Below are positions 213 to 29,957 of a stretch of 29,957 nucleotides of DNA, one piece after another. Source of the DNA: a virus; the IMG/VR virus record IMGVR_UViG_3300034104_001089, positions 1-29,957 of that record, one strand, 5' to 3'. Within the stretch, counting starts at the first letter, position 1, and the number at the start of each line of letters is the position of its first letter. Both the position numbers and the translations under genes were made by a program. The notes below the pieces were generated by a model, which saw nothing but the letters and a program-made list of their open reading frames with translations, made no database searches and was not told where the DNA came from.

Positions 213-763
213 AATAATGCGATTGTTTTAGTTTGTGATTCCGTTAATTGAAATTTAGATAGGATTTTCTTAAACTCCTCTTTGGTCATATCTCCGTTAT
301 CTACTTGTTTAAGTCCATTTTGGAATCTATCCTCCGTGATGCTTGGCTTCGTGTTTTTAACGTAATCAGAAGCACTATTTGAATCGTCATCCTCTGACTG
401 CATCGAACAAAGCGATAGCAAAGTATATCTACGATAGTAAGTAATTGCACTTCCTATCTTTTGTGGGTCAAGAATATCAGGAAGTCGCATAAAAGATTCA
501 ATGGTTTCATTAGTATCAGTATCAATGATAATACTGAATACGTTGCCATCTTTAATAGGTTGAATAAGTAGTAAGCCATTTTCTAATAGTATTGGTTCGA
601 TTGCTTCTAATGCAGAATTAATATCTACATAATTACTCTTAAAGTGTGGATTCTTTGCATTTTTACTTGCTTTACCAATTTGTTGCTTGGCTTTCCACAT
701 TTTAAAATAGATTCCGTGTGGTCTTGGAATCGCATCCTCAAAGGATTCTTTTGTTGTTTTCAT
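209..763 (-). CDS. erf: ERF-family single-strand annealing protein
   Basis: This 184-aa protein belongs to the ERF (essential recombination function) superfamily of phage single-strand annealing recombinases. Characteristic segments are NPHFKSNYVDINSALEAI (38-55) and GSAITYYRRYTLLSL (104-118), followed by the acidic EDDD (124-127), matching the family hallmark in which an alanine/arginine-rich helix precedes an acidic patch. The C-terminal quarter is a variable, charged tail. It directly precedes the exonuclease gene with ATGA overlap. The pair should repair or circularise phage DNA by annealing and may drive mosaicism. An AAACACG motif falls in codons for Lys-Asn-Thr-Lys. Confidence 0.92.
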   Translation of the reverse strand: MKTTKESFEDAIPRPHGIYFKMWKAKQQIGKASKNAKNPHFKSNYVDINSALEAIEPILLENGLLLIQPIKDGNVFSIIIDTDTNETIESFMRLPDILDPQKIGSAITYYRRYTLLSLCSMQSEDDDSNSASDYVKNTKPSITEDRFQNGLKQVDNGDMTKEEFKKILSKFQLTESQTKTIALL

Positions 764-775
764 ATTATTTGTTTT

Positions 776-1222
776 TTAGTTTATGCTAATATACTTATTT
801 AATTCTAATCTATCTACATACACTACATAAATATGTCGAGAATATGTAAAATTTATTTTATCGTACTTGGAATTGCAGACAGTTACAGGATATAATCCTT
901 TTTCTATTAATTCCTTCCATTGATACTTTACTTCAAAGCATTGCGAATCTTCTTTTCGGTGTTTATGAAGATGCTGAACTGATGACTGGTGCATATTTAA
1001 ATAGTCTGCTATTTCTTCGTATGTATGTCCTGCATCTCTTAATTGAATACAGGCTTCCTGCTTTAGTGTGATGAAATAAACTCCTCTGTATCTGATGCCT
1101 TTGAAATAACTCCTTATAAGTTCTTTGTCTATTCCTATTTCTTTAGGTTCTGTGATATTACGTTCTTTTCTGATGTACTTATTATTTATTTGTACCTGTC
1201 CTTTAATCTCTGTAAGTTTCAT
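776..1222 (-). CDS. Helix-turn-helix DNA-binding protein
   Basis: This 148-aa protein has a clear helix-turn-helix near residues 56-87 (ACIQLRDAGHTYEEIADYLN, then a Gln-Ser-Ser-Val recognition helix), like MerR/sigma-region-4-type HTH segments. I chose ATG 1222 because it overlaps the upstream stop as ATGA; the frame extends 11 codons further up but only through the end of the preceding gene. An AAAACACG motif lies about 15 bases before this start. It sits between small early genes and ERF, suggesting an early regulator, but its target is unknown. Confidence 0.7.
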   Translation of the reverse strand: MKLTEIKGQVQINNKYIRKERNITEPKEIGIDKELIRSYFKGIRYRGVYFITLKQEACIQLRDAGHTYEEIADYLNMHQSSVQHLHKHRKEDSQCFEVKYQWKELIEKGLYPVTVCNSKYDKINFTYSRHIYVVYVDRLELNKYISIN

Positions 1223-1443
1223 AATTGATTTATTTCGTGTTTTACTTCTTGCCAATAAGATACAAACTGAAAATCAAAAGCACTAAACTGGTCTTCTGTA
1301 TCTCGTTTTTTTTCATCAAAATAAGGACATACTTTTATAACCTCATCTACTGCTATTAATGCACAATCTTTGGCAAATGTTTTATCTGTTAGAATAAATT
1401 GATAGTCATCAACTAATTCTTTTGCTTTTTCTTTCGGTGTCAT
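1219..1443 (-). CDS. Small conserved phage protein, tandem paralog A
   Basis: This 74-aa protein begins MTPKEKAKELV and ends YWQEVKHEINQL, with a central ALIAVDEVI helix. It shares N-terminus, central helix and C-terminus with its upstream neighbour, so the two are tandem duplicates. It appears all-helical with no catalytic motif. I chose ATG 1443 because an upstream start would only read through the previous gene's end. Overlaps of a few bases with both neighbours indicate translational coupling. Function unknown; similar MTPKE proteins are, from memory, common in flavobacterial phages. Confidence 0.75.
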   Translation of the reverse strand: MTPKEKAKELVDDYQFILTDKTFAKDCALIAVDEVIKVCPYFDEKKRDTEDQFSAFDFQFVSYWQEVKHEINQL

Positions 1444-1667
1444 AACTTTTCTATTTCTTGTTTTACTTCTTTCCAATATTCAATAGTTACCAATGAACCT
1501 ATTAACATATCTAATATTGTATCTACTGCTATTATTGCAAATTCTCTTGGATTATATCTCATAATATCAGTTAAATAATTTAAATCTAAGTCATAAAAAT
1601 CAACATTTCCATAATCAATATTAATATATTTTATAACTAACTCTTTTGCTCTTTCTTTCGGTGTCAT
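1440..1667 (-). CDS. Small conserved phage protein, tandem paralog B
   Basis: This 75-aa protein begins MTPKERAKELV, has a central FAIIAVDTIL segment and ends YWKEVKQEIEKL. It is a diverged copy of the 74-aa gene immediately downstream. The middle, between the shared ends, is rich in Tyr/Asp and differs between copies. Its ATG overlaps the stop of the MazG-like gene. It is probably a helical accessory protein of unknown role. Confidence 0.75.
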   Translation of the reverse strand: MTPKERAKELVIKYINIDYGNVDFYDLDLNYLTDIMRYNPREFAIIAVDTILDMLIGSLVTIEYWKEVKQEIEKL

Positions 1668-1843
1668 AATTCACTTTTTAATCGTTCAATATATAGCGTT
1701 GCATCCATCAATTCTTCCTGTAAGTGATTGAGCCAGTCTAATAGGTTTAAATCTTCACGTTCTAACGTTGTTCCGTATTTTTCTAAACCTGCTTCTGCTC
1801 TTTCACAGTACTTACTTAATACTTGTTTTACGAATCTGTCCAT
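1664..1843 (-). CDS. MazG-like small protein
   Basis: This 59-aa protein begins MDRFVKQVLSKYCERAEAGL. The segment EKYGTTLERED...LLDWLNHLQEELMDATLYIERLK (21-56) resembles the all-alpha NTP pyrophosphatase (MazG/dUTPase-2) core: the EExxD-like 'EELMDA' at 43-48 is the metal-binding signature of that fold. Only one half-core is present, so it could be a minimal hydrolase acting as an oligomer or a non-catalytic relative. The start has AACTATG context. Phage MazG proteins are linked to nucleotide-pool or (p)ppGpp control; activity here is inferred. Confidence 0.7.
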   Translation of the reverse strand: MDRFVKQVLSKYCERAEAGLEKYGTTLEREDLNLLDWLNHLQEELMDATLYIERLKSEL

Positions 1844-1967
1844 AGTTGTTTAGTTTAATGTCGCATACTCGAAGGTATAAATCCATATTAAAATTACCTC
1901 CTTTTTCCTGTTTTACTGATGGCTTACTCCACCATCTTTTAATCATTGCTATTGGTATTGTTTTCAT
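1812..1967 (-). CDS. Hypothetical 51-aa protein
   Basis: This open frame begins MKTIPIAMIKRWWSKPSV, contains a Lys/Gly-rich middle, and overlaps the start of the MazG-like gene by 32 bases. There is no recognisable domain. It fills an otherwise uncoded interval in a densely packed operon and has an ATG in A-rich context, which supports it moderately. A shorter start at its internal Met (MDLYLRV...) is possible. Confidence 0.45.
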   Translation of the reverse strand: MKTIPIAMIKRWWSKPSVKQEKGGNFNMDLYLRVCDIKLNNYGQIRKTSIK

Positions 1968-3757: not shown

Positions 3758-4206
3758 TAATAAGGTGTATAAGGTACATACATTGTAAGTCCGTGTTTTT
3801 TTAAAGCACGAAGTACTTGTTTACGATTTCCTTTTTGTTTATATGATATGTGAAACCAATCAGCAGTAACGTTATTTCCAAACTCCCAAATCAATTGGTC
3901 AAACTCTACGTTATTAATTATCCAATCAAAAGTATCTTTGTCGTGTAGATCTAAGTCCATTGCTTCGCCTTTGCAATGTTGTGATGATGTGCTACCTCCT
4001 ATTTTTTTATTCAGTTTTGCACTTCTAAAACCAGAATTTACTTTTATTGGATGTCCTACCTTTGCTCTTATAGGCTCAAAAACATTAACACACAAAAGTA
4101 TTGCTTTCGTTGTTTGTTCTTCATTCATTTGGTTGTCTATTCCTAACCTAACTGCAGTAGGAGATAACTCAAATTCTGACTTGGTAACGTGCTTACTTAG
4201 ATTCAT
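3757..4206 (-). CDS. Endolysin, M15-family peptidase
   Basis: This 149-aa zinc peptidase belongs to the M15 (D-Ala-D-Ala carboxypeptidase/L,D-endopeptidase) family. Visible elements are SGFRS (58-62), SQHCKGEAMDLD (76-87) with zinc ligands His77 and Asp84, and WFHISY (117-122) with the third ligand His119. No signal peptide is present, so export should rely on the holin. It follows three small membrane-protein genes, forming a lysis cassette. It is expected to cleave peptidoglycan stem peptides at lysis. Confidence 0.92.
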   Translation of the reverse strand: MNLSKHVTKSEFELSPTAVRLGIDNQMNEEQTTKAILLCVNVFEPIRAKVGHPIKVNSGFRSAKLNKKIGGSTSSQHCKGEAMDLDLHDKDTFDWIINNVEFDQLIWEFGNNVTADWFHISYKQKGNRKQVLRALKKHGLTMYVPYTPY

Positions 4207-4298: not shown

Positions 4299-4561
4299 CT
4301 GTCAAGTATTAATTGTTTAACTGCACTGGATAATTCACTTACATTTTTAGCAAGATTCTTTATTTCAAGTTGTGTTTGCTCTTGTATTGCTTGATACTTT
4401 AATCTTGCTTCTTGCTCTACAAGTTCAATCTTTCCTTTCTGCTTTCCTATTTCTTCCGTGTTTTTTCGTACATCATTATGTACAATTTTAAGGAAGTAAC
4501 CGATAATAGTTGTTGCAGTAGCAAGTATAAACATCCAAATTTCAGAACTTCCTATTGTCAT
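4295..4561 (-). CDS. Membrane-anchored coiled-coil protein of the lysis cassette
   Basis: This 88-aa protein has an N-terminal transmembrane segment (about 8-28) followed by a long charged coiled coil (30-85). The topology suggests an anchor in the inner membrane with the coil in periplasm or cytoplasm, as in i-spanin-like or XhlA-like proteins. It overlaps the holin candidate and the 31-aa membrane ORF by 4 bases. A spanin or holin-regulator role is inferred only from topology and place. Confidence 0.65.
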   Translation of the reverse strand: MTIGSSEIWMFILATATTIIGYFLKIVHNDVRKNTEEIGKQKGKIELVEQEARLKYQAIQEQTQLEIKNLAKNVSELSSAVKQLILDR

Positions 4562-4832: not shown

Positions 4833-5316
4833 AGTTAATCGTGTTTTGGTTCGGAAACATATCTCCATTACTATTCTCGTAGTATTCAGGAAACGATGCT
4901 TGATTAAAGCACATATAATCTTTGAATCTCGTTGTATAGTGTTGTGCAATGCTCTGTTGTTTATTGATTAGATAATCAACTTCTTCTTTGCTTACAGTTT
5001 CGCTTGTTTCACTACCACCTTTATAAATTCCTTTATTTGCTATTTGATAACTCGCAAAAGGTAAATATTCATATAATGCCCAATGTATAACCATCGGTTT
5101 AATATATGTTGTTAAAAGCGATGTATAAGGCTCTGCTAAGTCATCAGCGACAATATCATCGTTGAACTTCATAAATAGACGAGTACCTAAATACTCTTGT
5201 ATATGTGTATCTTGTGCAATTTTGACAAATTGAATGAACTTATCAGTGTCTACATTACCATTTAATGCAGTGAATTTTTTAATATCTTCTGTTGTTACAA
5301 ATAATGCTTGTGCCAT
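4816..5316 (-). CDS. Head-tail connector-like structural protein
   Basis: This 166-aa protein starts MAQALFVTTEDIKKFTAL; I chose this Met because it follows the portal stop by two bases, while the longer frame reads into the portal gene. The N-terminal helical part (KIAQDTHIQEYLGTRLF) and a central WALYEYLPFASY resemble Bacteroidetes phage proteins that sit beside portal genes and are thought to be head-completion or adaptor proteins. There is no enzymatic motif. The role is inferred from context and my memory of the family. Confidence 0.65.
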   Translation of the reverse strand: MAQALFVTTEDIKKFTALNGNVDTDKFIQFVKIAQDTHIQEYLGTRLFMKFNDDIVADDLAEPYTSLLTTYIKPMVIHWALYEYLPFASYQIANKGIYKGGSETSETVSKEEVDYLINKQQSIAQHYTTRFKDYMCFNQASFPEYYENSNGDMFPNQNTINYGWYL

Positions 5317-7484: not shown

Positions 7485-7512
7485 ATACTTATATAACTTA
7501 TAGTTCGTGTTT
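7485..7512 (-). promoter_or_regulatory. Shared AT-rich leader element
   Basis: On the minus strand AAACACGAACTAT is followed by AAGTTATATAAGTATATG, which ends in the start codon of the 110-aa gene. The second part recurs almost identically before three other structural genes. It could be a promoter or a ribosome-loading leader. Confidence 0.45.
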
Positions 7513-9913: not shown

Positions 9914-10482
9914 TATATTTGATTTAATAATTCCTTAATTTGTTTTAAAAGTTCTTCGTCTTTTGATAGTCCTAACTTTTCAAGACCACTAAACATTGCT
10001 TCGATTGAGTAACCTTTATAAGTACCGTCTTTTACTTGTTGCCATACTTTCTCATTATCAATCTTACTCATTACTACCCACTCTCCACCTTTAGGATTTA
10101 GGTTGTATAAGTTTGACTTGTCGTTATTAGCATCTTCTACTATCCAACTTTCAATTACACTTACTCCATCCGTGTTTTTCTCATGTTCTAAAGTGAAGTT
10201 CTGTAAGTTAAGTTGCTTCATATATAACTCTTGTGCTTCACGAATTGTGTCAGCAGAGAAATAAATATTAAACTCTTTGCCTTTTAAAACACGATAAATA
10301 CGCTTGTCAGGAACTAATGCAAAACCTACTACTATTCTTCTTTCAGAATCGATAACTTTTAGTTCTACTTTTTCAGAAGATAATGCAATAAAATCTTCTT
10401 CAATTGCAGGATTCTCTACCAGTGAAATAGCGAAAACACCATCTTTCGCATCTTCTATTTTTAATTCTACTTCTTGTAACAT
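9913..10482 (-). CDS. Prohead protease, XkdF-like
   Basis: This 189-aa protein resembles the XkdF/HK97 prohead serine protease group. Typical blocks are VENPAIEEDFIAL (22-34), VGFALVPDKRIYR (52-64), FTLEHE (96-101) with likely catalytic His100, ESWIVED (111-117) and YKGYSIEAMF (155-164) with likely nucleophile Ser159. It would mature the capsid and remove scaffold during head assembly. It lies just after the tape measure gene and before the scaffold and capsid genes. Confidence 0.83.
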   Translation of the reverse strand: MLQEVELKIEDAKDGVFAISLVENPAIEEDFIALSSEKVELKVIDSERRIVVGFALVPDKRIYRVLKGKEFNIYFSADTIREAQELYMKQLNLQNFTLEHEKNTDGVSVIESWIVEDANNDKSNLYNLNPKGGEWVVMSKIDNEKVWQQVKDGTYKGYSIEAMFSGLEKLGLSKDEELLKQIKELLNQI

Positions 10483-10497: not shown

Positions 10498-12441
10498 TTA
10501 TAATACACTTGTTTTAATTGCTTTCTGTTCCAACATTTGAGCAGTTGTAATATCACTTGCAACAACATAGGCTTTAAGTGGTTGCATAGACAATCCTTGT
10601 AATAATTGCGAAGTTTGATTACCACCTGCCACGTTAAATTGTGGAGTTATAGATTGTGCATTTGCACTTGGTACATTTGAATTTAAACTTGGATTATCAT
10701 TACCACTACTAAAACTTGTTTTTGATATAGCAGCGATTTGCATTGCACCCATTGTAGCAGCAGCAATACCAAATGGAATACCTGTAGGAATACCACCACC
10801 ATTTCTAACTGATTGAACAACGTTAGATGCAGTGTCTATGATTGTTTGAACAATTCGCAATTTTTTATCACGTTCAAACATTTTACGTTTAATTGCTTCT
10901 TCTTCTTTACTTCCTTTTACAACGTGTTTTAACCTTTCTTCATCTTGTGTATTAAGCAAACCATTTAAAGAACCCATTACATTTCCAAAAGTTTCTGCAT
11001 ACTTCAATGCTAAATCTAATCTTTCCTTATTTTTCTGCTTTTGTTTATCTATTTCATCTTTATCTCGTTGGTCTTGTGCTTTGGAAAAATCCCAATATTG
11101 TTGCCACCAAAATTTTTGATAATCTTCTTCGTCTTGTTTCTTTTGTTCTAATAATGCATTGCTTGATTCTGCTCTTTTTTTATCTTCTTCTATTAATTGT
11201 TGCGTGAAAATTGCTTCAATATCATCTTGTGTTAATAGACTTGTATCGATTTTTTCAGTTACTTTATCAATAGACTTAACTACTTCATCATTTTGTTTAA
11301 CATATTTATTCCCTCCTTCAGTTAATTTATCTATTTGATTAGATGCATTTAATGCTGCTTTTCCATAGTTGGTATATCTATCTTTTGCATCATTTAACTT
11401 TTGATTATTATCACTGATTCTTTGCCCAAGTATTTGTGCTTTTCCTGCTAATTCCTCATTGGCATAAGCCAAACCTGTATAAACTCTTATACCTGCATCA
11501 TCAGTTTCGTATGTTTCTTTTCTTTTTAAAGCACCTTGTGCAACAAGTTTATTGTATTCTGCTTCATCTTTTGCTAAATCTCGTTTTAATTTAGATTGTA
11601 GTTTAAGATTGTTAACTATAGCATCTTCATTTGCCTGTAGTTTATATTTGTATTCTTGGTATGTTAGATAATTTTTTAACTCAGTGTTTAACTGATTCTG
11701 AAAATCTTTCTCATCTTGAAGATTTTTTAATGTTGTTCCATATGTATCATTAATATCTTTAATTAATCTTTTCCTATCTTCACTATTTTTATTTGTTGCT
11801 TTTAATTGTTCTATTAAACTAACAAATGATTGACTTTCTTTATATACAGCATCATTTTGTTTTTCAAATGCTTTGTTTAAATCATCTTGTTTTTTGTTTA
11901 ATTCATCTTGTTCTTTAGATACAGATTGATATGCATATACTAATCCACCTATTGCAGTTACTACTAATCCTATTCCTGTCAATGCAAATGCACGACCAGC
12001 AGTAGTCATTGCTGTAAATGTATTTTTTACAACAGAACCTAATTGAATAAAACTATCCTTTGCCTCCATCAGTCCTTGCAGACCTTGTGATAAAGCCATA
12101 GCAGATTGAACTTTCAAAAGTGTTTTCTGTAAATCTTGACTTTCTACACCAATAACACCTAAAGCACCTTCAAAGGCTTGGAATCCATTTAATACTCCAC
12201 CAATTGAAGTACTTAATGCGTTAAATTTAGCATCAGGATTAAAGGCATCAGTTAACGCTTTTGCATCTGCTATTCTATCTTTTAATTCTGCTGCTTTTTT
12301 GGCTGCGTTTGCTGCTTCGGTACTTGTTGCACCAAACTTTTCAGATAATATGGCAACTTCTGCTTGTGCATTTTTTAATTGTGTGCGTAAACTACCTAAG
12401 TTAGTTTCTACATCTAATTGGATTGTCTTATTCTCTGCCAT
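10498..12441 (-). CDS. Tape measure protein
   Basis: This 647-aa protein has an N-terminal helical coiled coil (LGSLRTQLKNAQAEVAILSEKF region), a hydrophobic stretch near 150-173 (ALTGIGLVVTAIGGLVYAY), long charged coiled coils to about 490, then a Gly/Ala-rich part (IPTGIPFGIAAATMGAMQIAA). This architecture is typical of siphophage tape measures, which set tail length and travel with the DNA. With the usual 0.15 nm per residue, a tail near 100 nm would be expected. It is separated from the tail chaperone by several genes, which is unusual. Confidence 0.9.
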   Translation of the reverse strand: MAENKTIQLDVETNLGSLRTQLKNAQAEVAILSEKFGATSTEAANAAKKAAELKDRIADAKALTDAFNPDAKFNALSTSIGGVLNGFQAFEGALGVIGVESQDLQKTLLKVQSAMALSQGLQGLMEAKDSFIQLGSVVKNTFTAMTTAGRAFALTGIGLVVTAIGGLVYAYQSVSKEQDELNKKQDDLNKAFEKQNDAVYKESQSFVSLIEQLKATNKNSEDRKRLIKDINDTYGTTLKNLQDEKDFQNQLNTELKNYLTYQEYKYKLQANEDAIVNNLKLQSKLKRDLAKDEAEYNKLVAQGALKRKETYETDDAGIRVYTGLAYANEELAGKAQILGQRISDNNQKLNDAKDRYTNYGKAALNASNQIDKLTEGGNKYVKQNDEVVKSIDKVTEKIDTSLLTQDDIEAIFTQQLIEEDKKRAESSNALLEQKKQDEEDYQKFWWQQYWDFSKAQDQRDKDEIDKQKQKNKERLDLALKYAETFGNVMGSLNGLLNTQDEERLKHVVKGSKEEEAIKRKMFERDKKLRIVQTIIDTASNVVQSVRNGGGIPTGIPFGIAAATMGAMQIAAISKTSFSSGNDNPSLNSNVPSANAQSITPQFNVAGGNQTSQLLQGLSMQPLKAYVVASDITTAQMLEQKAIKTSVL

Positions 12442-12587
12442 AATTTATATTTGTATTCTCGTTTAAGTTGTTTTACTCCGTGTTTTACTGATGTAGGAAG
12501 TTGGTATTTTCCTTTTGCTATTTCGATATTCTCCGTCTTTCCGTAGAATTCATCTAACTGTAATAAATCTAAAATGTTTCTTATCAT
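12414..12587 (-). CDS. Hypothetical 57-aa protein before the tape measure
   Basis: This frame begins MIRNILDLLQLDEFYGKTEN, contains VKHGVKQLKREYKYK and ends QRIRQSN. It overlaps the hub gene stop (ATGA) and the tape measure start (28 bases). It is basic, with no known domain. The AAACACGG motif lies in its Lys-His-Gly codons. Confidence 0.6.
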   Translation of the reverse strand: MIRNILDLLQLDEFYGKTENIEIAKGKYQLPTSVKHGVKQLKREYKYKLWQRIRQSN

Positions 12588-17749: not shown

Positions 17750-19252
17750 TTAACTATAAATTAAATCTGCTCTATTTGTCCAAGCACCTGTAGCAACTCC
17801 TTTTGTTGTTGTTCCATCACTTGCTAATGTTAATTTTGTTATTGTCCATACTGATGCACTCTCTGAACTTCCTTGTGATGCGTGACCATTATAGTCATAA
17901 GGAGAAGCAAATGAGTGTAATCTGTCTAATTGTGTTTCAGCCATTACTCCTGCTTGTTGTGTAACAGTAAAAATTGCACTTGCAGTTGAAGGAGGATTAC
18001 CTGCTGCATAATACTGCATTGTGACTTGTGTACTTGATGCACTCCAAACTAACTCGTAATAATCTCCCGAATTTAATTCAAGCAAGTAATTCCAAGAAAC
18101 AATTGTATGACCATTTACTCCTGCGTGTTTATTTGGTATCGAACAATATCCTGATGAACCTGCTACATCTGTTCCGTTCTTCCTTAACCAAATAGTTACA
18201 TCTTGTAATTGTGTATCCGTGTTTTGAAACTGACTACTGAATTGTAAGTTATAAACACCACCATTTGCAAACGTTATTCTTGAATCACTTACTACTGTTA
18301 CCTCGTTTGATAAGTCCATAGTTCTGAACTTCATTGGATAACCTGTGTTTATTGTAGCAACAGTCTGTGTTGCGTCATCTTGATATTGTGCGTAATAACC
18401 TAATGTAGTTAATTGCGAAGGTTTATTTTTTATGTAGTCTAAAGCACTTGTGTTGGCTTGTGTCCAATCTGATTGAATCTGTGCAGCAGGAATAGTTAAA
18501 GTAACAGCACCTGTTAATCCATTTACTGAAGTTACTGCATCCGTAGCTGGAGAATGTTGCCAAATGCTACCATTGTACATCACCCAATCACCAACTCCAA
18601 AACTTATAGCACCTGATCCAAAGTTTACACTACCTGCAACTGAACATCGATATACATCTCCTGCGTTACCTGTGCCATTCGCTAAAGTTGGTGTATTTGT
18701 TGAAGCATCCCAAGCACCTTTAAACTCCATTACTGAATTTGGTAATTGTGTAGCTGGAATCTTACCACCTGAATCTAATGAAGCGTAACCATTTGCGTTT
18801 CCTTTTTCCTCTGTTGTTTGAATAATATAATTTCCAGCAGATGCTTTGTCAGGAATTTGTAGATTTATTCCATTTATATTTACTTCTAAATTATCAAGTG
18901 TACTATCATAGCCCCCTGATTTAAGTCCTAAAATACCTGTTGAACCTAAATAAGCATAAGTCCCTGAATTTTTATCTTCCGTACCTATTTCAGTTGGTGC
19001 AATTAAAGAGTAAGCATTTGCACTATCTATTGTTAATGAATTGGTGGTAGTTGCTCCGTTATCTGTTACACTTTGTAAATCTTGGTTTCCACCACCACCT
19101 CCCGATAGTTGTACATACCCCGTACCATCCCAATAATAACTGAAATCAGAATCCTCTGCTATGTAGATAGTTTTTACACTACCCGTTGCAGGAAAAGATG
19201 CTAAATCAGCATACGTTAGTATCTGTGAATTTATGTTAATATCTATTGCCAT
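17750..19252 (-). CDS. Receptor-binding tail fibre candidate
   Basis: This 500-aa protein has an N-terminal attachment-like region (residues 1-55, ending Ser-Gly-Gly-rich), several fibre-type repeats (GNANGYASLDSGGKIPATQLP; DAVTSVNGLTGAVTL; WTQANTSALDYIKNKP) and a C-terminal jelly-roll candidate (about 310-440: ITFANGGVYNLQFSSQFQNT, DVTIWLRKNGTDV, YYELVWSASS) like C1q/TNF-type heads. This is the best receptor-binding candidate. Two AAACACG motifs lie only 94 bases apart in the head domain. Confidence 0.72.
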   Translation of the reverse strand: MAIDININSQILTYADLASFPATGSVKTIYIAEDSDFSYYWDGTGYVQLSGGGGGNQDLQSVTDNGATTTNSLTIDSANAYSLIAPTEIGTEDKNSGTYAYLGSTGILGLKSGGYDSTLDNLEVNINGINLQIPDKASAGNYIIQTTEEKGNANGYASLDSGGKIPATQLPNSVMEFKGAWDASTNTPTLANGTGNAGDVYRCSVAGSVNFGSGAISFGVGDWVMYNGSIWQHSPATDAVTSVNGLTGAVTLTIPAAQIQSDWTQANTSALDYIKNKPSQLTTLGYYAQYQDDATQTVATINTGYPMKFRTMDLSNEVTVVSDSRITFANGGVYNLQFSSQFQNTDTQLQDVTIWLRKNGTDVAGSSGYCSIPNKHAGVNGHTIVSWNYLLELNSGDYYELVWSASSTQVTMQYYAAGNPPSTASAIFTVTQQAGVMAETQLDRLHSFASPYDYNGHASQGSSESASVWTITKLTLASDGTTTKGVATGAWTNRADLIYS

Positions 19253-19914
19253 ACGATGTTAATTGTTTCGTTGCTTAAAGTTGCTACTTCTATTGATTCC
19301 TGTAGTACTTCATCAACATATACGTTAAATGTTGTATCAGGTAGTATGATTATCTCTTCTGCTCCACTTTCTATATAACCTTGCTCAATTATTGTATTAT
19401 CCGTGTTTTTAATTACAAAGTGTGCAGCCAAACAATCATCAGGTATAGGAACTAATCCATCACAAGATGTCATTGTGTTAGGAATAAGAACATCAAATGT
19501 ACCTGTCCATCCTGCTAAACTATTTTCAAATCTTTCTGTGAAGTTTTCGCAAGTAGGATTGCCATCTAATTGGTAAAGGTCCTTAGATAAACTACCTGTC
19601 TTTAATACTTGAAAAAGTCTATTTAAAACTGCCAGTTGTGTATTAAGAATGTCTTGCTCATTCGTGTTTCCGACAAACCAATCAGTGATGTTATCTTTGC
19701 TCTCATCGAGAATATCCATAGCGATAACAGAAACGTTAAATCGCCAAATGTTATTTTCCATCGTTGCTTCATTCACCATCAAGTGACAAAGAGGAAAGAT
19801 AGTTTGTTTGTTTAAGTCAATTTTAAAGATGTCGCCATAAGTAACCGTGTTTACATTCGGGTCTTCTTCAAGTTGAAGTTTTATTCTTTCTAATATGTTA
19901 TAAAAACCTTGCAT
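19243..19914 (-). CDS. Tail-terminator-like protein with extension
   Basis: This 223-aa protein has an N-terminal part (1-150) that begins MQGFYNILERIKLQLEEDPN and contains PLCHLMVNEATMENNIWRFN, consistent in size and position with a tail terminator. Residues 160-223 form a separate beta domain (FVIKNTDNTIIEQGYIES). It directly follows the chaperone frameshift product. Role inferred from context; three AAACACG motifs lie within 450 bases here. Confidence 0.5.
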   Translation of the reverse strand: MQGFYNILERIKLQLEEDPNVNTVTYGDIFKIDLNKQTIFPLCHLMVNEATMENNIWRFNVSVIAMDILDESKDNITDWFVGNTNEQDILNTQLAVLNRLFQVLKTGSLSKDLYQLDGNPTCENFTERFENSLAGWTGTFDVLIPNTMTSCDGLVPIPDDCLAAHFVIKNTDNTIIEQGYIESGAEEIIILPDTTFNVYVDEVLQESIEVATLSNETINIVWQ

Positions 19915-20651: not shown

Positions 20652-20680
20652 ATATTTATATAACTTAATTTCCGTGTTTC
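20652..20680 (-). promoter_or_regulatory. Shared AT-rich leader with AAACACGG motif
   Basis: On the minus strand AAACACGGAAATT is followed by AAGTTATATAAATATATG, ending in the chaperone start codon. The arrangement is nearly the same as at 7485-7512. Confidence 0.5.
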
Positions 20681-20835
20681 TGTTGTATGTAATCAAATGC
20701 CTTGCATAATAGCTGAAAATGTCGGTGCATAACAAAAGGATTATCAAATACTATCTTCACTCGCTTACCTGTAGTATCAAATATGTAATCTTGAATAACT
20801 GCACTATAATGCTCTATGCTTATATGCTCTACCAT
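20665..20835 (-). CDS. Hypothetical 56-aa protein
   Basis: A frame overlapping the terminase large subunit stop begins MVEHISIEHYSAVIQDYIFD and ends YIQQKHGN. Mixed strands and helices, no recognised family. It fills the terminase-chaperone gap. Its last codons contain the AAACACGG motif that may also serve the chaperone leader. Confidence 0.6.
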   Translation of the reverse strand: MVEHISIEHYSAVIQDYIFDTTGKRVKIVFDNPFVMHRHFQLLCKAFDYIQQKHGN

Positions 20836-21986
20836 ATATGGTATTTTTCTCTGTTGTTCTTTAAGCCTAAAGTTTCCATTTCATGATACCTCAAAGCATC
20901 AATAGCGTGATTAAAGTTGTCAATAGGTTTGTTTAGTTTAATTCCTGTTTTGTCAGTTGCCCAGCAGTAACTTCGTAACTCTTTAATTAAATTAGTACTG
21001 TTTGACGTTACTGAATAATTCTGTGATTGCATTATCTGAATACCAAAATTTATACTATCCTGACCTTTTGTAACTCCTGAAATTAACTTTCCGAATCTTC
21101 TAATCTCTTCGATTGATTTAGGCTCTGAACTATCTGCGTAAATAGGAACGTTATTAGGAAGGTGTTTAGCGATATCGCTATTAACTAAACCTTGTTGATA
21201 AACTAATTCATTGACTATCCTTTGCCCATTGTAATTGTAAACTTCGATTATCGTTGTAGGATCATTCGTGTAACCAAAATCGACTCCGATGCCTAATAAC
21301 TTTGCATCACTTGGTATTATATCAATAGTTTTCCAATTATTAAACACTACACCTTGAAGACTTCCTATTTGACCAAGCCCATATACATTCCACCAATTCT
21401 CCCAGTATGAAGATGTCTTTGCCTTCTCCCTGTTTTTCTCAATCTCCTTTACTATGCTTTCATCTAAGGCTTCGTTGTCTAAATAAGTCAAGATAAGAAA
21501 GTCTGTATCTTCCGTATCTTTTAACTCGTTATGCACCCAAAACTCATTCGCAGGATTGAAGTCTAAATAGATTTCTTTTTTTGTACGGATTGCTAACTCA
21601 TTGTAACTTTCAAACGTTACGTTATTACACTCGTTTATGTATAAGATGTCACGCCTTGCACCTCGAAGTTTAGAACTATCATCAGCAGAGAAAAACTCAA
21701 TGTAACTACCATTCCAAAACTCATACCTCAGAAGACTTCGATTAAAACGTTCATCAAAGTATCTACCTGTCTGTTGCATTATCTTAATGCAGTCTTTCAT
21801 CGCACCTCTACGCAAATGTGGGATGCTTTCTGCTACGATACTTATTTCCGTGTTTGGATACGTTGCAGCCTTTGTAATTAGAATAGGGAGTATTCCGTAC
21901 GTCTTACCGGCACTTGTTCCTCCCTGTACTATCTTGATACGTTTCTTTAAACTATTTATCTTGCGTATTGCCGATGTTATTATCAT
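20829..21986 (-). CDS. terL: Terminase large subunit
   Basis: This 385-aa packaging motor has the Walker A motif GGTSAGKT (22-29), Walker B region ILYINE (115-120) and a C-terminal RNase H-like nuclease with acidic residues Asp236 (GVDFGYTNDPT), Asp284 (YADSSEP) and Asp363 (NHAIDALRY). It powers DNA packaging and cuts the concatemer. It is somewhat short for the family but all motifs are intact. The start overlaps the small subunit end by 35 bases. The packaging type (cos or headful) cannot be judged from sequence here. Confidence 0.95.
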   Translation of the reverse strand: MIITSAIRKINSLKKRIKIVQGGTSAGKTYGILPILITKAATYPNTEISIVAESIPHLRRGAMKDCIKIMQQTGRYFDERFNRSLLRYEFWNGSYIEFFSADDSSKLRGARRDILYINECNNVTFESYNELAIRTKKEIYLDFNPANEFWVHNELKDTEDTDFLILTYLDNEALDESIVKEIEKNREKAKTSSYWENWWNVYGLGQIGSLQGVVFNNWKTIDIIPSDAKLLGIGVDFGYTNDPTTIIEVYNYNGQRIVNELVYQQGLVNSDIAKHLPNNVPIYADSSEPKSIEEIRRFGKLISGVTKGQDSINFGIQIMQSQNYSVTSNSTNLIKELRSYCWATDKTGIKLNKPIDNFNHAIDALRYHEMETLGLKNNREKYHIW

Positions 21987-22389
21987 CTAAACTAAATAGT
22001 GGTTGCTCGATATTTGTTTGTTCTACTTGCTCTTTTAAGCCATTTAAACGTTGTGTGATGCTTGGATTATATTGTCCTACCATACCACCTTCTATTTGGT
22101 CTTGACGCACAATTTCCTTTATATGCGTACAGATAGTAACAAATTCATTAAATCTTTTATCAGGATTATCAAAGTATTGTTTTACACATCCTACTTTATC
22201 GAAGCAATAAACTCTGAATCCTTCCATTGTTAAAGGTCTTTCAAGTGGCTCTGCTCGTTCTTCAAATTCCTTACCTCCGAATACTGATTTTATTCTTGGA
22301 TTACTCTTTACATCCTCTCTATACTTTTTGAATAGTTCGTATAGTTGTTCTGGTGATTCGAGATTGCGTGGTCTTCCTACTTTAGCCAT
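21952..22389 (-). CDS. terS: Terminase small subunit
   Basis: This 145-aa protein begins MAKVGRPRNLESPEQLYELF, has a DNA-binding-like helical N-terminus (PLTMEGFRVYCFDKVG, about 50-70) and a C-terminal segment SITQRLNGLKEQVEQ typical of small terminases. It recognises the packaging site and recruits TerL. It lies directly upstream of terL with overlapping ends. Confidence 0.85.
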   Translation of the reverse strand: MAKVGRPRNLESPEQLYELFKKYREDVKSNPRIKSVFGGKEFEERAEPLERPLTMEGFRVYCFDKVGCVKQYFDNPDKRFNEFVTICTHIKEIVRQDQIEGGMVGQYNPSITQRLNGLKEQVEQTNIEQPLFSLDDNNIGNTQDK

Positions 22390-22759
22390 TATTTTCTTCT
22401 TTGTATGTATTGTAAACTTTTGCTAACTCTGAATGCACCTCACGGAAACAACTTGAGCAGGAAGTAGGTCTTTTATTTGTATTGAATACTCTATTGTATA
22501 TCTTCAAGAGCATCTGTTGTGTACTTACGTTTATTTCGTTTCGTGTTTCTGCAAAATAAGTATGTAAGTAATTATACTCATCCTCATTCAAGCATTGTGG
22601 CTTCTTATAAGGAAACCACTCATTAAGTTTCTGTTTACGTTCCTCGCAATTACAATCATCACCTGCTATAAATTTTACTACTTGTGCAATACCTGTTGCT
22701 TCTAGTACTTTCTCTACTGTATCTCCTAAGCCTTTACTTGGTTTTCTTCCCCTTGCCAT
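22382..22759 (-). CDS. Hypothetical cysteine-containing protein upstream of terminase
   Basis: This 125-aa protein has two Cys clusters, CNCEERKQ (37-44) and CSSCF (99-103), which might bind a zinc ion together. The N-terminus MARGRKPSKG is basic, like a DNA-contact arm. It overlaps terS by 8 bases. I recall similar proteins just before terminase genes in Bacteroidetes phages, suggesting a packaging accessory, but function is unproven. Confidence 0.65.
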   Translation of the reverse strand: MARGRKPSKGLGDTVEKVLEATGIAQVVKFIAGDDCNCEERKQKLNEWFPYKKPQCLNEDEYNYLHTYFAETRNEINVSTQQMLLKIYNRVFNTNKRPTSCSSCFREVHSELAKVYNTYKEENNG

Positions 22760-22907: not shown

Positions 22908-23061
22908 TGCTTATATATTTAATTAACTCTTTTTCGTTCTTTATGTTTTTTGCTTCGTGTTTTTGAAGCCTTATGTATTCAGTCTTACCTTTATGTAGTA
23001 CAGTGAAGATAGTTGTCAATTCTCCTTGCTCGTAATATTCCTCTATGTTTAATACTTTCAT
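22891..23061 (-). CDS. Hypothetical 56-aa protein
   Basis: A frame starting MKVLNIEEYYEQGELTTIFT and ending YISNETSR couples to the upstream stop as TAATG. It is a small alpha/beta protein with basic centre (LHKGKTEYIRLQKHEAKN). The AAACACG motif falls in Lys-His-Glu codons. No family recognised. Confidence 0.65.
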   Translation of the reverse strand: MKVLNIEEYYEQGELTTIFTVLHKGKTEYIRLQKHEAKNIKNEKELIKYISNETSR

Positions 23062-23264: not shown

Positions 23265-23775
23265 TGATAAAATCTTCGTAGTGTTCACTGCAATTATCTT
23301 GTACTCTTTCTTTGCAGTTCTTTAGTGTGTTGTATATAGATGATAGACTTATCTTAGTCTTGTCTGCAAGTTCTCTCATCGTTATATCTGAATCCTTATA
23401 GACTTTGAATAGCATTGCATCATACCAGTGCCACGAATCTATCTCATCGTTTAATCTTTGACTAAATATTTCGAATCCGTGTTTTGCTTCGTCTAATTCT
23501 TCATCCTCTACATCGAACTTATCAGATAACCTTGCAATGTCAATTCTGTTTCCGTGTTTCTTTAGGTCATTGTAGATATTTCGTAGCACAAACCAAACAT
23601 AAGCCTTATTCACTTCTCCGTTATTGACTATCTTATCTTCGGTAGTATATCGGTTGATTCGTAGATACATTTCCTGCACTATGTCCTCTGCATAGTCATT
23701 CTCTCCCCAACTCCTAACTATCTTCAAGTATTCGTTGTGATATTTAGCAATGTATGTTAACCAATCTGCACTCAA
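23242..23775 (-). CDS. Sigma-70-like transcription factor
   Basis: This 177-aa protein has a region-2-like segment YAEDIVQEMYLRI (28-40), followed by YVWFVLRNIYNDLKKHG (59-75), an acidic linker, and a C-terminal helix-turn-helix TMRELADKTKISLSSIYNTL (132-151) like region 4. This matches ECF-type sigma factors. No ATG is available: the start appears to be TTG at 23775, with an in-frame stop (TAG) shortly upstream. Located just before terminase, it could direct host RNA polymerase to late promoters. An activity as anti-host regulator is an alternative. Confidence 0.78.
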   Translation of the reverse strand: MSADWLTYIAKYHNEYLKIVRSWGENDYAEDIVQEMYLRINRYTTEDKIVNNGEVNKAYVWFVLRNIYNDLKKHGNRIDIARLSDKFDVEDEELDEAKHGFEIFSQRLNDEIDSWHWYDAMLFKVYKDSDITMRELADKTKISLSSIYNTLKNCKERVQDNCSEHYEDFINEDYERI

Positions 23776-24208: not shown

Positions 24209-24339
24209 TATTCTTCAGGATTTAATCTCTCAAATGCAGTATCTTGATATACCCAACTTAACACATAGTTAGTTGCTCTTTGCCAGTTACGTTTTAGAAA
24301 TGGATGCTTTTCGTGTTTTCTTCGTCTATTCTTGTTCAT
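24208..24339 (-). CDS. Hypothetical basic 43-aa protein
   Basis: This frame begins MNKNRRRKHEKHPFLKRNWQ and ends DTAFERLNPEE. The N-terminus is very basic, so nucleic-acid binding is possible. Start and stop both overlap neighbours by 1-4 bases. The motif AAAACACG lies in Arg-Lys-His-Glu codons. Confidence 0.65.
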   Translation of the reverse strand: MNKNRRRKHEKHPFLKRNWQRATNYVLSWVYQDTAFERLNPEE

Positions 24340-24648: not shown

Positions 24649-24863
24649 ATTTCAATTCCGTTTTCAGTTAGTATTCCGTTAAATTCTTCTCTGATTCTTT
24701 CAAAAGTATCTCTTTCAATATCAGATAGTTGTTCGTTATATTTTATTTCTCTCCTTAAATATTGGTAAAATTCAAATAAACAAACGTAATAATCTGCTGA
24801 TTTTACTGCTCGATTAAATTCTTCGTTATCTTCAGGGAGATTAAATGTAAGTGTTGCTTTCAT
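24645..24863 (-). CDS. Hypothetical 72-aa acidic protein
   Basis: This protein begins MKATLTFNLPEDNEEFNRAV and has alternating strand and helices with Tyr/Glu-rich surface. I recall this 'LTFNLPED..EF' opening as common in phage hypothetical proteins. Start context AACTATG, inside the end of the upstream coiled-coil gene. Confidence 0.7.
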   Translation of the reverse strand: MKATLTFNLPEDNEEFNRAVKSADYYVCLFEFYQYLRREIKYNEQLSDIERDTFERIREEFNGILTENGIEI

Positions 24864-25003
24864 AGTTTCTCTAATTGTTCTTCTAATATTTCTAACTCTG
24901 CTTCGTACTTCTGCATATCGTATAATAAGTCATTTACTTTGCAGTAGTATATCTTACCTTGTAGGTAGTCTATCTCTTGTTCTATTTCTATTCGTGTTTT
25001 CAT
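24860..25003 (-). CDS. Hypothetical coiled-coil protein, 47 aa
   Basis: This frame begins MKTRIEIEQEIDYLQGKIYY and continues as a coiled coil to LEEQLEKL. It is joined by ATGA overlaps on both sides. The AAAACACG motif occupies its second to fourth codons (Lys-Thr-Arg), directly after the ATG. Confidence 0.7.
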   Translation of the reverse strand: MKTRIEIEQEIDYLQGKIYYCKVNDLLYDMQKYEAELEILEEQLEKL

Positions 25004-25251
25004 AGGTCTAAATCAATTTTAGTTAACCATTCTCTAAATAATAACTGCAATTCATTTTGTTGCTCCATTGCTTCGTTATATTCTTCTTTTAGTACACTTT
25101 GATTAGTGAAGTGATTGTCTAATGCTCTGATTGAATTTATAACCGTGTTTGCCTTAAATTTAACTTCGTGTCTTAAAGGCACATCTTCGAGTAAATCTGC
25201 TAACACAGGCAATAAAGAAGTTGATAAAATTAGTTTTTCTTGTGTTTCCAT
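25000..25251 (-). CDS. Hypothetical helical 83-aa protein
   Basis: This protein begins METQEKLILSTSLLPVLADL and is predicted entirely helical, ending LLFREWLTKIDLDL. No known domain. Start context AAAACTATG, 15 bases after the NinG stop. Confidence 0.7.
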   Translation of the reverse strand: METQEKLILSTSLLPVLADLLEDVPLRHEVKFKANTVINSIRALDNHFTNQSVLKEEYNEAMEQQNELQLLFREWLTKIDLDL

Positions 25252-25265: not shown

Positions 25266-25796
25266 CTAATATAATTCTTTTATTTTATTCTTATACATTT
25301 CGATAATATTTTTTAATTCATCTTTAGTCCACTTCTTTGTTTCATTTGAAAAACTTTCAAGCATTGCATATCCATCTAATCCTATTTTTTTTATTAATTC
25401 TTCTCTATATGCTATTAAGTTTCCGTGTTTATGTTGGTTACAAGCGACACATTGTCCGTGAACATTATCAGGATTAAATCTAATTGCTGAATGTCCTCCT
25501 GCACTCCAATAATGACCAGCATCAAATTTGCTTCCTAAAGGTTTATTACAACTTATGCAAGGTTGGTATTTATCTCGTTCTCGGATGTATTTATTAAATA
25601 CTTGTTGAGCAATCTTAAGATAGTCCTGTAAGGTCATTAATTCCTCTTTTCGTTGCTTCTGTCGTTTCTTTTCTTCCTTTGCTTTATTCTCCTTCCAAAA
25701 CACAGATAAACATTCTTCTTTAGTGCAATACTTTTGAAATGATGTATATGGGTGAAACTTCTCCTCGCAGTTCTTACATTTCTTGCTTCTTATCAT
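25266..25796 (-). CDS. ninG: NinG-like recombination protein
   Basis: This 176-aa protein matches the lambda NinG (Rap) family of Holliday-junction/branched-DNA nucleases. An N-terminal zinc region (CKNCEEKF, KYCTKEEC; Cys7, Cys10, Cys24, Cys29) precedes a Lys-rich helix, then the core CISCNKPLGS (80-89), AGHYWSAGGHSAIRFNPDN (93-111) and HGQCVACNQHKHGN (113-126) with Cys116/Cys119. It resolves recombination intermediates, complementing ERF and the exonuclease. It overlaps the 87-aa gene start as ATGA. Confidence 0.92.
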   Translation of the reverse strand: MIRSKKCKNCEEKFHPYTSFQKYCTKEECLSVFWKENKAKEEKKRQKQRKEELMTLQDYLKIAQQVFNKYIRERDKYQPCISCNKPLGSKFDAGHYWSAGGHSAIRFNPDNVHGQCVACNQHKHGNLIAYREELIKKIGLDGYAMLESFSNETKKWTKDELKNIIEMYKNKIKELY

Positions 25797-26056
25797 AATT
25801 CATATATTTTATCTATTGCTAACTTACTATTTAACTCTAAATTGATTCTTAATAGTTCCGTGTTTTCCTGCATTAACTGTCTATTCTCTGCTTCTAATTC
25901 AAATAAAGTTATCCTTACTTGTTCTAAATCATTGCAGATGCGTTGTATTCCTATTCTCTTTTCATCACTCATCTTCTCTAACTGCAATCTTAATAGCATT
26001 TTATTGATTGTTAGATTAATGTTGATTCTTGCTGTTGTTAGTTTTAAATTATCCAT
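25793..26056 (-). CDS. Hypothetical coiled-coil protein, 87 aa
   Basis: This protein begins MDNLKLTTARININLTINKM and has long coiled coils (ELEAENRQLMQENTELLRIN). It begins directly after an AAAACACGTAACTATG junction, and a second near-copy of that sequence (AAAACACGGAACTAT) lies inside it at 25859. No known function. Confidence 0.7.
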   Translation of the reverse strand: MDNLKLTTARININLTINKMLLRLQLEKMSDEKRIGIQRICNDLEQVRITLFELEAENRQLMQENTELLRINLELNSKLAIDKIYEL

Positions 26057-26068
26057 AGTTACGTGTTT

Positions 26069-26518: not shown

Positions 26519-26529
26519 AGTTCCGTGTT

Positions 26530-27501
26530 TTAAAATGGTAGCCCATCATCAAAGTTAACATTCTGTTGAATAGCATTGTGAATATTCGTTTCTTTTATTA
26601 TTTCATTTTGTGGAGATGCGTAAATCTTTTCATATACATTAGGTGCTGGATTAGTCTGTTCAAAGTATGTTAATCTATCTTTGTCAAACCATATCTCAAT
26701 ACTTCCTACTTTTCCATTACTTCGTGGTTTAATCTTATTAAAATGAATTTCTGCAAGGTTAAGTGTTGTATCTTGTCTATGTACTGTTATCATACATTTA
26801 CCACTATTGAACCATTCACTACCTCCTTTCAAATCATAAGGTACAGGAACTGCTCTTTTACCATTTACTTTCTCTGTTAGTTTAGGATGAATTATAGTGT
26901 GTAAATGCAAGTTATTATCCTCTGCAATTTGATTTCGATAAGGTAAAACGTATTCCAAGTATTGAGCATAACCTCCGTGTTTTTCGTATTCGTGTGTTAA
27001 GTCCTTCCAACTATCAATAGAAGCAGTGTGCAATCCTTCGTGTTTTTGTATCTGAACTGCCATATCCCAAAATTGTATTGGAGTCATCTTTGCCTTTACA
27101 TCTGATTTAGTTAGTACTTTAAAATGTTGAATCACCCAATCTATATTTCTATTGATTTCTTCGTTTGTAATTACATTGTTACTACTTGGATTAAAAGACT
27201 TACCTGTTTTTTTGTGTATAAGGTCTGCTATGATTTCTACATTCGTTCCAACATCAGGAAAATATATTAAATGCTTCCATCCATAAAACATCGAAGTATT
27301 TATAAGAAGTTCCATAAGCACCTGTGTTTTACCTGACATCGGATAACCTGTCCAATCTGTGCAGTTTCCTAAACTCATCGAATAGTATTCGTGAAGTGTT
27401 TTAAATCCTAAATACTTTCCTTTCTCGTTATATGTATCTCGGTATGTAAATAGTTTGTCTATGACATCACCTATCTCTGTTATTTTATATCCATTATCCA
27501 T
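26530..27501 (-). CDS. DnaB/RecA-fold replicative ATPase with SSB-like C-terminal tip
   Basis: This 323-aa ATPase has Walker A GYPMSGKTQ (52-60), a RecA-like core with HTASIDSWKDLTH (Walker B Asp about 164) and HLHTIIHPKLTEK (arginine-finger-side strand) and a KGGSEWFNSGKCMITVHR segment. It lacks the DnaB N-terminal domain and is probably a replicative helicase or loader acting with the upstream initiator. The C-terminus ends NFDDGLPF, strikingly like the acidic SSB tip that recruits repair and replication proteins. Confidence 0.8.
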   Translation of the reverse strand: MDNGYKITEIGDVIDKLFTYRDTYNEKGKYLGFKTLHEYYSMSLGNCTDWTGYPMSGKTQVLMELLINTSMFYGWKHLIYFPDVGTNVEIIADLIHKKTGKSFNPSSNNVITNEEINRNIDWVIQHFKVLTKSDVKAKMTPIQFWDMAVQIQKHEGLHTASIDSWKDLTHEYEKHGGYAQYLEYVLPYRNQIAEDNNLHLHTIIHPKLTEKVNGKRAVPVPYDLKGGSEWFNSGKCMITVHRQDTTLNLAEIHFNKIKPRSNGKVGSIEIWFDKDRLTYFEQTNPAPNVYEKIYASPQNEIIKETNIHNAIQQNVNFDDGLPF

Positions 27502-28426: not shown

Positions 28427-28431
28427 ACTAA

Positions 28432-28626: not shown

Positions 28627-28643
28627 AGTTTCGTGTTTTTGTT

Positions 28644-28666: not shown

Positions 28667-28668
28667 TG

Positions 28669-28714
28669 TCAACAGGACATCGCTTAACCTGTGGTGTTGA
28701 TATCATTACACACC
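28669..28714 (-). other. Hairpin cluster upstream of the terminator
   Basis: Two further hairpins precede the terminator: GGTGT/ACACC (minus strand, 28714-28710 with 28697-28693) and ACAGG/CCTGT (28692-28688 with 28676-28672). Alternatively TCAACA (28700-28695) and TGTTGA (28674-28669) could pair, excluding both. This may be a structured 3' end or regulatory RNA of the SSB transcript. Confidence 0.45.
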
Positions 28715-28743
28715 TTTAATGTTTCCATCTACGATTTTTTTTA

Positions 28744-29043: not shown

Positions 29044-29058
29044 ATTTATTTTTATTTA

Positions 29059-29253
29059 TTAATTACTTTGTCTTGATGGTTTAATCCTAATGTATAGATT
29101 GTTAAATCGTTTTTTTGTGCATTGAAAGATTTTTAAAGGATTTTTATAATTTCCTTGTGTTACTTTATACACTACATTTAATGCATCTACTTCTAATAAT
29201 TCTACAATTTGTTCTGCCCTTGAACAGTTGTAATAACGTTGCCCTGTTTTCAT
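29059..29253 (-). CDS. Hypothetical 64-aa protein
   Basis: This protein begins MKTGQRYYNCSRAEQIVELL and has a small alpha/beta pattern with KIFQCTKKRFNNLYIRIKPS. Single cysteines do not form a motif. Start context AACTATG. Unrecognised. Confidence 0.65.
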   Translation of the reverse strand: MKTGQRYYNCSRAEQIVELLEVDALNVVYKVTQGNYKNPLKIFQCTKKRFNNLYIRIKPSRQSN

Positions 29254-29256
29254 AGT

Positions 29257-29463
29257 TTATTTGTTTTTATATGTTTTATTGTAATATACTTCATGATAAT
29301 CAATACGTGAATTGTGCATTAATTTACCATGTAACCAAGCATTTGTAATCTGCTCTTTTTCCATTTCTAAGGCTTCATCAATACATTTTTGAAACCCTGC
29401 TCTTGTAACTCCATTATGGTTTTCTATTTGTTCGATAAACCATTGTAATGCTGTTTTTTTCAT
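29257..29463 (-). CDS. Small MEKEQI-family protein B
   Basis: This 68-aa protein begins MKKTALQWFIEQIENHNG and has ALEMEKEQITNAWLHGK (31-47) and a YYNKTYKNK end, paralleling the 71-aa protein at 24433-24648. It is the gene immediately after the exonuclease (ATG with AACTATG context). Unknown function, common in flavobacterial phages to my recollection. Confidence 0.65.
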   Translation of the reverse strand: MKKTALQWFIEQIENHNGVTRAGFQKCIDEALEMEKEQITNAWLHGKLMHNSRIDYHEVYYNKTYKNK

Positions 29464-29467
29464 AGTT

Positions 29468-29957
29468 TTACTTTTTTAAAGATAAATAATAATCGTTTGC
29501 TTGTTCTACTTTTTCTTTGATTCTGTTTTCTGCATCAATGCTTCCTTCAACAATAAATCGTTTGATTCTTAAATTGTCTGATAAATGGTCGAAGTTATGT
29601 TGACATTGCACTGCTTCTCTTACATCTAAACTTTCTTCTAATAGATTTAGTTTCCAGTGCATACGTCTTATCTCATCTTCTACGATTTGTTGTGGAGTAT
29701 TCATAAGGCAATATACTAACTCTGCTTGTAAATGTCCTGTAAGCATCATATAACCTTGTAACTGCCAAAAGTAATCTTTGTTCGGTAATTCAGTATCGAA
29801 GAAAGGGAATGTACTACCACTCCAAGAGCATTTAATATCTGCAAGTAGTGTTTCCGTGTTTATGTCAGGAATGCCTGTTATCCATTCATTCTTTAAACGT
29901 TCTTCGTTTTTGTTTACATTTAAATCCCATCCAAGAACATTACCTGCTAATTGTATG
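29468..29957 (-). CDS. YqaJ-like recombination exonuclease, C-terminal part (crosses the circular junction)
   Basis: This continues the frame from bases 212-1; the 30-base overlap must be counted once, and the joined protein is 223 aa. The nuclease core is visible: Gly-Ile-Pro-Asp at 89-92 and Asp-Ile-Lys at 101-103 (Asp92, Asp101 and Lys103 as metal/catalytic residues), then a YFWQLQGYM segment (123-131) typical of YqaJ proteins. The tail after residue 150 is helical. Its expected role is resection of linear DNA to make 3' overhangs for the ERF protein. The family assignment is firm; the substrate range is inferred. Confidence 0.9.
   Translation of the reverse strand, partial: IQLAGNVLGWDLNVNKNEERLKNEWITGIPDINTETLLADIKCSWSGSTFPFFDTELPNKDYFWQLQGYMMLTGHLQAELVYCLMNTPQQIVEDEIRRMHWKLNLLEESLDVREAVQCQHNFDHLSDNLRIKRFIVEGSIDAENRIKEKVEQANDYYLSLKK
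29928..29957. repeat. Terminal direct repeat, right copy
   Basis: Exact copy of bases 1-30. It lies inside the YqaJ-like exonuclease gene, which is an unlikely place for a cohesive or packaging end, so I read it as assembly overlap. Confidence 0.9.

Follow-up and report, generated by a model that had tools for sequence, protein, structure and literature searches.

Why should a viral genome carry one seven-letter word ten times more often than its composition predicts, and almost always on the same strand? The window analysed here, a stretch of 29,957 nucleotides (positions 1 to 29,957 of the IMG/VR virus record IMGVR_UViG_3300034104_001089), contains AAACACG 33 times on its minus strand, the coding strand of nearly all its genes, and once on its plus strand. 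An earlier note, made from the letters alone, drew attention to this word and named a Chi-like recombination hot spot, a recombinase cue, and a packaging or transcription signal as possible explanations. We conclude that the longer form AAACACGRA (AAACACG, then G or A, then A) is very probably a selected recognition word rather than a product of chance or codon usage, that it probably acts on DNA and with polarity, and, more tentatively, that it is a Chi-like site for a host nuclease, benefiting phages of a probably Bacteroidota host.

An over-represented and oriented word

Exact counting over the window gives 33 copies of CGTGTTT on the plus strand and a single AAACACG, at position 10287; TCCGTGTTT occurs 16 times on the plus strand and reverse-orientation AAACACGGA not at all, 16 of the 33 minus-strand copies of AAACACG thus extending to AAACACGGA. 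The counts in the earlier note were therefore exact, and its first and last copies are found again at 350 and 29855-29861. On the minus strand AAACACG is followed by G or A in 30 of 33 cases and then by A in 29 of 33, and AAACACGRA occurs 27 times there and never in reverse. A second-order Markov model, fitted to each strand separately, predicts 3.14 copies of the 7-mer on the minus strand and 0.38 on the plus, and 0.89 and 0.05 copies, respectively, of the 9-mer, so that the excess is 10-fold for the shorter word and 30-fold for the longer. Under a maximal-order model CGTGTTT is the top 7-mer of the window (z 5.2). This comparison, which the note had proposed, places the counts far from expectation (33 against 3.14, and 1 against 0.38) and bears out the strong over-representation. 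The density is about 0.9-1.1 copies per kb, or about 900 per Mb in the window.

The orientation bias is real at 33:1, but it is not wholly a property of the word: the composition of the purine-rich coding strand alone predicts a ratio of about 8:1, and reverse copies prove to be enriched in relatives (see below). The claim that the word ignores reading frame and codon preference holds. By mechanical open reading frame (ORF) calls, 27 of the window sites lie in ORFs, in frames 2, 0 and 1 in 15, 10 and 2 cases, and the other six lie outside ORFs or at their edges, where the note had counted four intergenic copies. When synonymous codons are shuffled within each gene, preserving its protein and its codon usage, 6.6±1.7 copies are expected in genes against 24 observed, which rules out codon usage and protein content as the cause of the excess. 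Enrichment also reaches into intergenic DNA. Some copies directly precede start codons, but with 27 of 33 sites inside ORFs a promoter-like upstream placement is not the rule.

The word in related phages

Loci of related phages, 1.55 Mb in total, were gathered through the portal protein and the large terminase subunit (terL; window 20829..21986, minus strand, PHROG/Pfam Terminase_3), which also serves as the orientation reference for the motif. AAACACG is the most over-represented 7-mer in this set, with 867 copies against 187 expected and 91 in reverse, and the over-representation is thus common to related phages. In 24 relatives synonymous shuffling gives 93±6.6 copies against 313 observed, with an excess in all frames; the variant AAAGACG is also enriched in those 24 (194 against 75), but not in the window.

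Among 126 non-redundant loci, 47 are rich in the motif, 56 poor and 23 between. The rich loci contain AAACACGAA 287 times against 71 expected, AAACACGGA 115 times against 23 and AAAGACGAA 177 times against 50, figures that are descriptive rather than a test, the split having been made on the motif count itself. Most other single-base variants are little enriched or not at all, AAACGCGAA and AAGCACGAA are without enrichment, and none of these words is clearly enriched in the poor loci. Read on their other strand, the rich loci have few copies of the three words counted above, but still more than expected (26 against 3.5, 6 against 0.7 and 25 against 2.0). Antisense copies stand 7-12 fold above shuffles in rich phages, and the L231 group shows a clear excess on both strands.

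The individual sites turn over. In a codon-by-codon comparison, orthologues at about 50% amino-acid identity have only 1-2 of 7-15 alignable window sites in common with the window, yet across the compared genes these phages have 9-17 of their own, against 0-2 in motif-poor relatives. Such turnover at a maintained density excludes conserved protein motifs as the cause, and implies that the word has been gained repeatedly.

Other words were also frequent in parts of this set. In relatives L009-L168 the coding strand has a strong excess of GGTGGTG (354 against 45), which is confined almost wholly to frame 0 and probably reflects Gly-Gly coding. Further clade-specific heptamers belonged either to tandem pentapeptide repeats or to the context of start codons. 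TGGCACA, present 7-12 times in L372-L374 (group L371-L374), lies mostly within the repeated start-codon context AACATGGCACAACA, and 15-bp tandem repeats encoding pentapeptide-repeat proteins occur near exonuclease loci (L347 1016-1286, L350 3742-4072, L360 710-1070 and L367 142-652). Scans of IMG/VR by motif alone, for unrelated motif-rich phages, gave only chance or tandem-repeat matches outside this supergroup of phages among those checked.

A second phage group and its inverted gene block

A second group of loci (G428-G430, G767-G772 and G785) was found through the Erf-like single-strand annealing protein (window 209..763, minus strand; phrog_2324, PF04404). Its members are only about 24% identical to the window in the portal protein and about 32% in terL. 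Each genome has 7-21 copies of AAACACGRA, almost all of them on the strand that encodes most genes. A conserved block of two genes is inverted in these genomes, and within it AAACACG occurs 13 times on the genome's main strand against 2.9 expected, and 3 times on the block's own sense strand against 3.5 expected. The inverted gene is a real coding sequence, with differences distributed over the three codon positions as 9499/5313/29422 in the 31 loci that have the block. Neither a signal in mRNA nor a side effect of sense-strand composition would readily give this arrangement, which fits a signal tied to the DNA molecule itself. At L544 3887-5180 the inverted two-gene block has no PHROG match, and this phage group, with genomes of about 29 kb, otherwise has mostly one coding direction.

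In both groups the copies lie on the terL-sense strand, and the absolute excess peaks at 0.85 and 0.68 per kb in the 9 kb upstream of terL, compared with 0.32 and 0.36 per kb at 9-18 kb downstream of it. Given how RecBCD and phage packaging generally behave, and with the packaging site assumed to lie upstream of terL, this orientation would match an enzyme that enters at the packaging cut, moves away from it and reaches a Chi site from the 3' side.

The genome and the positions of the sites

The window ends in an exact 30-bp direct repeat (1-30 = 29928-29957), and an exonuclease gene (29468..29956, minus strand; phrog_5715) runs over the circular junction into 1-212; the record is therefore taken as a complete, circularly closed phage genome of about 29.93 kb. 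Also on the minus strand are genes for the small terminase subunit (21952..22389; phrog_606) and a NinG/Rap-like junction endonuclease (25266..25796; phrog_171), and PHROG and Pfam searches recognise portal, tail, endolysin, HNH and primase/helicase-like proteins. The same searches recognised no integrase or clear immunity repressor in the window, where several ORFs are without assignment. The nearest isolated phages are Flavobacterium phages by terL (56%) and the Nonlabens phages P12024S/L by portal (32%) and Erf (47%); motif enrichment is absent from FpV9, of which 27.7 kb was examined, and from P12024S. No isolated phage close to the second backbone was found. The window also strongly avoids 4-bp palindromes (observed/expected: GCGC 0/6, CTAG 1/62, GATC 8/90, GGCC 1/9, AGCT 9/68, CATG 10/78), and the CATG count is zero in several relatives.

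Minus-strand AAACACG is followed by GA at 3792..3798 (in the endolysin-like gene), 4457..4463, 10171..10177, 12479..12485, 15769..15775, 18218..18224 (in the minor tail protein gene), 19402..19408, 20673..20679, 21849..21855 (in terL), 23478..23484, 23553..23559, 25424..25430 (in the NinG/Rap-like gene), 25859..25865, 26524..26530 (at the gene boundary preceding 26518), 26976..26982 (in the primase/helicase-like gene) and 29855..29861 (in the exonuclease gene). It is followed by AA at 350..356 (in the Erf-like gene), 1236..1242, 7506..7512, 15178..15184, 19663..19669, 22542..22548, 22956..22962, 24312..24318, 24993..24999, 27039..27045 (in the primase/helicase-like gene) and 28632..28638 (ahead of a start codon), those at 7506, 24312 and 24993 lying outside ORFs. 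The remaining minus-strand copies are followed by AT (4840..4846), TT (10923..10929), CA (18124..18130, in the minor tail protein gene), GT (19846..19852 and 25144..25150) and TA (26062..26068, immediately 5' of a start codon). The sole reverse-orientation copy, on the plus strand at 10287..10293, is without the RA extension.

Do genes or hosts track the word?

By statistics that ignore kinship, rich phages have a number of replication and recombination genes more often than poor ones do. Among small genes, a 72-aa family (window 24645-24863) is present in 27 of 47 rich and 6 of 56 poor loci, NinG in 30 rich and 13 poor, and a DnaA-domain-IV-like family in 16 rich and 1 poor. One small protein resembling DnaA domain IV, with an HSTVVH signature, is encoded at G410 31624-32043 (oriented contig), its identity being read from the sequence. 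On each tree of Erf, exonuclease, NinG, portal and terL the rich or poor state switches 5-7 times, so none of these five genes determines the motif; some phages close to rich ones in terL are themselves motif-poor. Erf, exonuclease or NinG as sole determinant was accordingly rejected, motif-less phages with Erf or exonuclease also being found. Rich phages tend to avoid the restriction-type palindromes GATC, CATG and CTAG, a modest effect, again with kinship ignored. The absence of a deciding gene among these and the avoidance of palindromes are as expected, without being proof, if the host decides.

The host of these phages is probably a member of the Bacteroidota. The earlier note predicted that a Chi site would be frequent in the host genome, and this failed in every sampled Bacteroidota genome, although the true host may lie outside the sample. 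A host-wide motif at phage-like density was found in none of the roughly 750 genomes of Flavobacterium and other Bacteroidota that were sampled. A further 395 genomes (from the class of a Bacteroidota metagenome-assembled genome, partly overlapping the set of 395 considered below) contained site pairs only sporadically or in tandem repeats. What looked like slight replichore bias in host genomes turned out to reflect the listing order of the matches.

Interpretation

Our favoured, still tentative, reading starts from what is observed: an excess beyond protein and codon content, its presence in two structurally different groups, the turnover of sites, their place on the terL-sense strand, and their orientation, in modest numbers, in the inverted block. 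AAACACGRA would be recognised on the double-stranded phage DNA, with a polarity, and would work like Chi. Where packaging or restriction has left a free double-strand end, a host helicase-nuclease of the AddAB or RecBCD type would enter; translocating in the direction opposite to that of the terL strand, it would reach the motif from the 3' side and change over from degradation to recombination. A phage that keeps many copies on the terL strand would survive and be able to build concatemers fit for packaging. The nuclease as reader, its host origin and the tie between orientation and the packaging end are the three parts that we infer; a host-encoded reader fits, since none of the five tree genes determines the rich or poor state. 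A precedent comes from work on Escherichia coli phages, where Chi is over-represented in those with a recombinase but without a RecBCD inhibitor and reaches high density around origin and packaging regions (PMC3784561).

Several results weigh against this reading. No motif-dense genome appeared among 395 Bacteroidota genomes counted, and 17 genomes, most of them among the densest, have 17-37 copies per Mb on both strands together, compared with about 900 in the window, whereas Chi density is similar in E. coli and its phages (PMC3784561). The observed-to-expected ratio (O/E) in the 17 is roughly 0.7-2.3, a rough figure as the expectation comes from 10-20 kb samples; an excess like that of Chi in E. 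coli (O/E 2.3; PMC3784561) is possible in one of them or in an unsampled host. Measured as fold-enrichment, neither group has a gradient away from terL. The enrichment of reverse copies (26 against 3.5) is not something that an orientation-dependent Chi needs. The inverted-block evidence shrinks to about six distinct positions against three once shared sites are removed, independent positions being few because related genomes have sites in common. Finally, with an Erf-exonuclease module of their own, it is not obvious that these phages need host recombination. The Chi-like option of the earlier note remains the best single candidate, even though the frequency in host genomes was not seen and the strand bias is partly compositional.

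A close rival, if a rather doubtful one, is a binding site for a DNA-binding protein of the phages themselves, acting in replication, condensation, packaging or silencing and exchanged between groups with replication and recombination genes. It is favoured by the confinement of motif density to this supergroup (motif-rich hits among the matches listed in the motif-only IMG/VR scan were almost only members, the checked exceptions being tandem repeats), by the lack of motif density in the sampled host genomes, and by the enrichment of the two small-gene families and NinG in rich phages; but none of these genes is in all rich genomes, their enrichment tests ignore relatedness, and the five large gene trees need their 5-7 changes. 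It is also quite possible that AAACACGRA is a polar DNA code word found only in phages and unrelated to host Chi, one that phages with structurally unrelated backbones carry and keep re-creating; its reader would then be a phage or host factor, not yet described, with a part in packaging, replication or the processing of ends.

Explanations that dispense with a reader, or place it elsewhere, fit less well. A mutational or compositional by-product of strand composition or codon pair bias could borrow the 8:1 orientation ratio, but enrichment survives synonymous shuffling, reaches intergenic DNA, is specific to the word (AAACGCGAA and AAGCACGAA are not enriched) and is missing from closely related phages, all of which makes this unlikely. 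We regard as distinctly unlikely a sense-strand mRNA signal for stability, antitermination or an RNA-binding protein; it would suit coding-strand copies in unidirectional genomes, some just 5' of start codons, but not the enriched antisense copies, the L231 group or the inverted block, where the motif runs opposite to transcription, and this last result disfavours the transcription signal raised in the earlier note. The stoperators of cluster A mycobacteriophages are asymmetric sites for a repressor, dispersed and pointing along transcription, and they resemble our sites in number (20-30), asymmetry, dispersion and single orientation (PMC6550527). As most copies lie inside ORFs, those of the inverted block oppose transcription, and neither an integrase nor a clear immunity repressor was recognised in the window, such sites are very unlikely here. 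Least credible is escape from a type III restriction enzyme that requires two opposed sites. In phage T7 the EcoP15I sites are known to point all one way, and a one-sided asymmetric word in phages that tend to avoid GATC, CATG and CTAG recalls this, but escape leaves the over-representation unexplained, and reverse copies are not depleted in the window (1 against 0.38) and are enriched in relatives.

Comparison with known systems

A single 9-mer is thus common to many phages of environmental metagenomes, at 4-5 times the Chi density of E. coli phages, and is rebuilt by turnover. If it is a Chi site, it would be a Chi candidate for a Bacteroidota-type host and could help to link metagenome-only phages to their hosts; otherwise it suggests a new, polar signal in phage DNA. 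In both cases the question is open to test, given the word, its orientation and a list of relatives that are rich or poor in it. The literature searched describes no Chi for Flavobacterium or other Bacteroidota and assigns no reader to AAACACGRA, and a search for AAACACG gave only unrelated matches among the matches listed.

DNA uptake sequences and KOPS-type polar chromosome motifs are likewise very frequent short words, KOPS being polar on DNA, but they belong to cellular chromosomes, whereas AAACACGRA is dense only in phages. The stoperators of cluster A mycobacteriophages such as L5 and Bxb1 also form sets of 20-30 asymmetric sites spread over the genome, mostly in one orientation, with a consensus that varies between phages (PMC6550527). 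They differ in length (13-14 bp against 9 bp), and the phage motif lies mostly inside genes, runs against transcription in the inverted block and has no cognate repressor seen in the window.

AAACACGRA is, to our knowledge, not among the known Chi sequences, and we treat it as a Chi candidate rather than as a member of the Chi family. At about 0.9-1.1 per kb it is denser than Chi in E. coli and its phages (0.2 per kb); it is not comparably enriched in any sampled host genome. Chi accumulates in phages without a RecBCD inhibitor (PMC3784561). Like the Chi sites of RecBCD and AddAB enzymes (GCTGGTGG in E. coli, GCGCGTG in L. lactis and GAAGCGG in S. aureus), AAACACGRA is short, asymmetric, over-represented, oriented on one strand and independent of reading frame.

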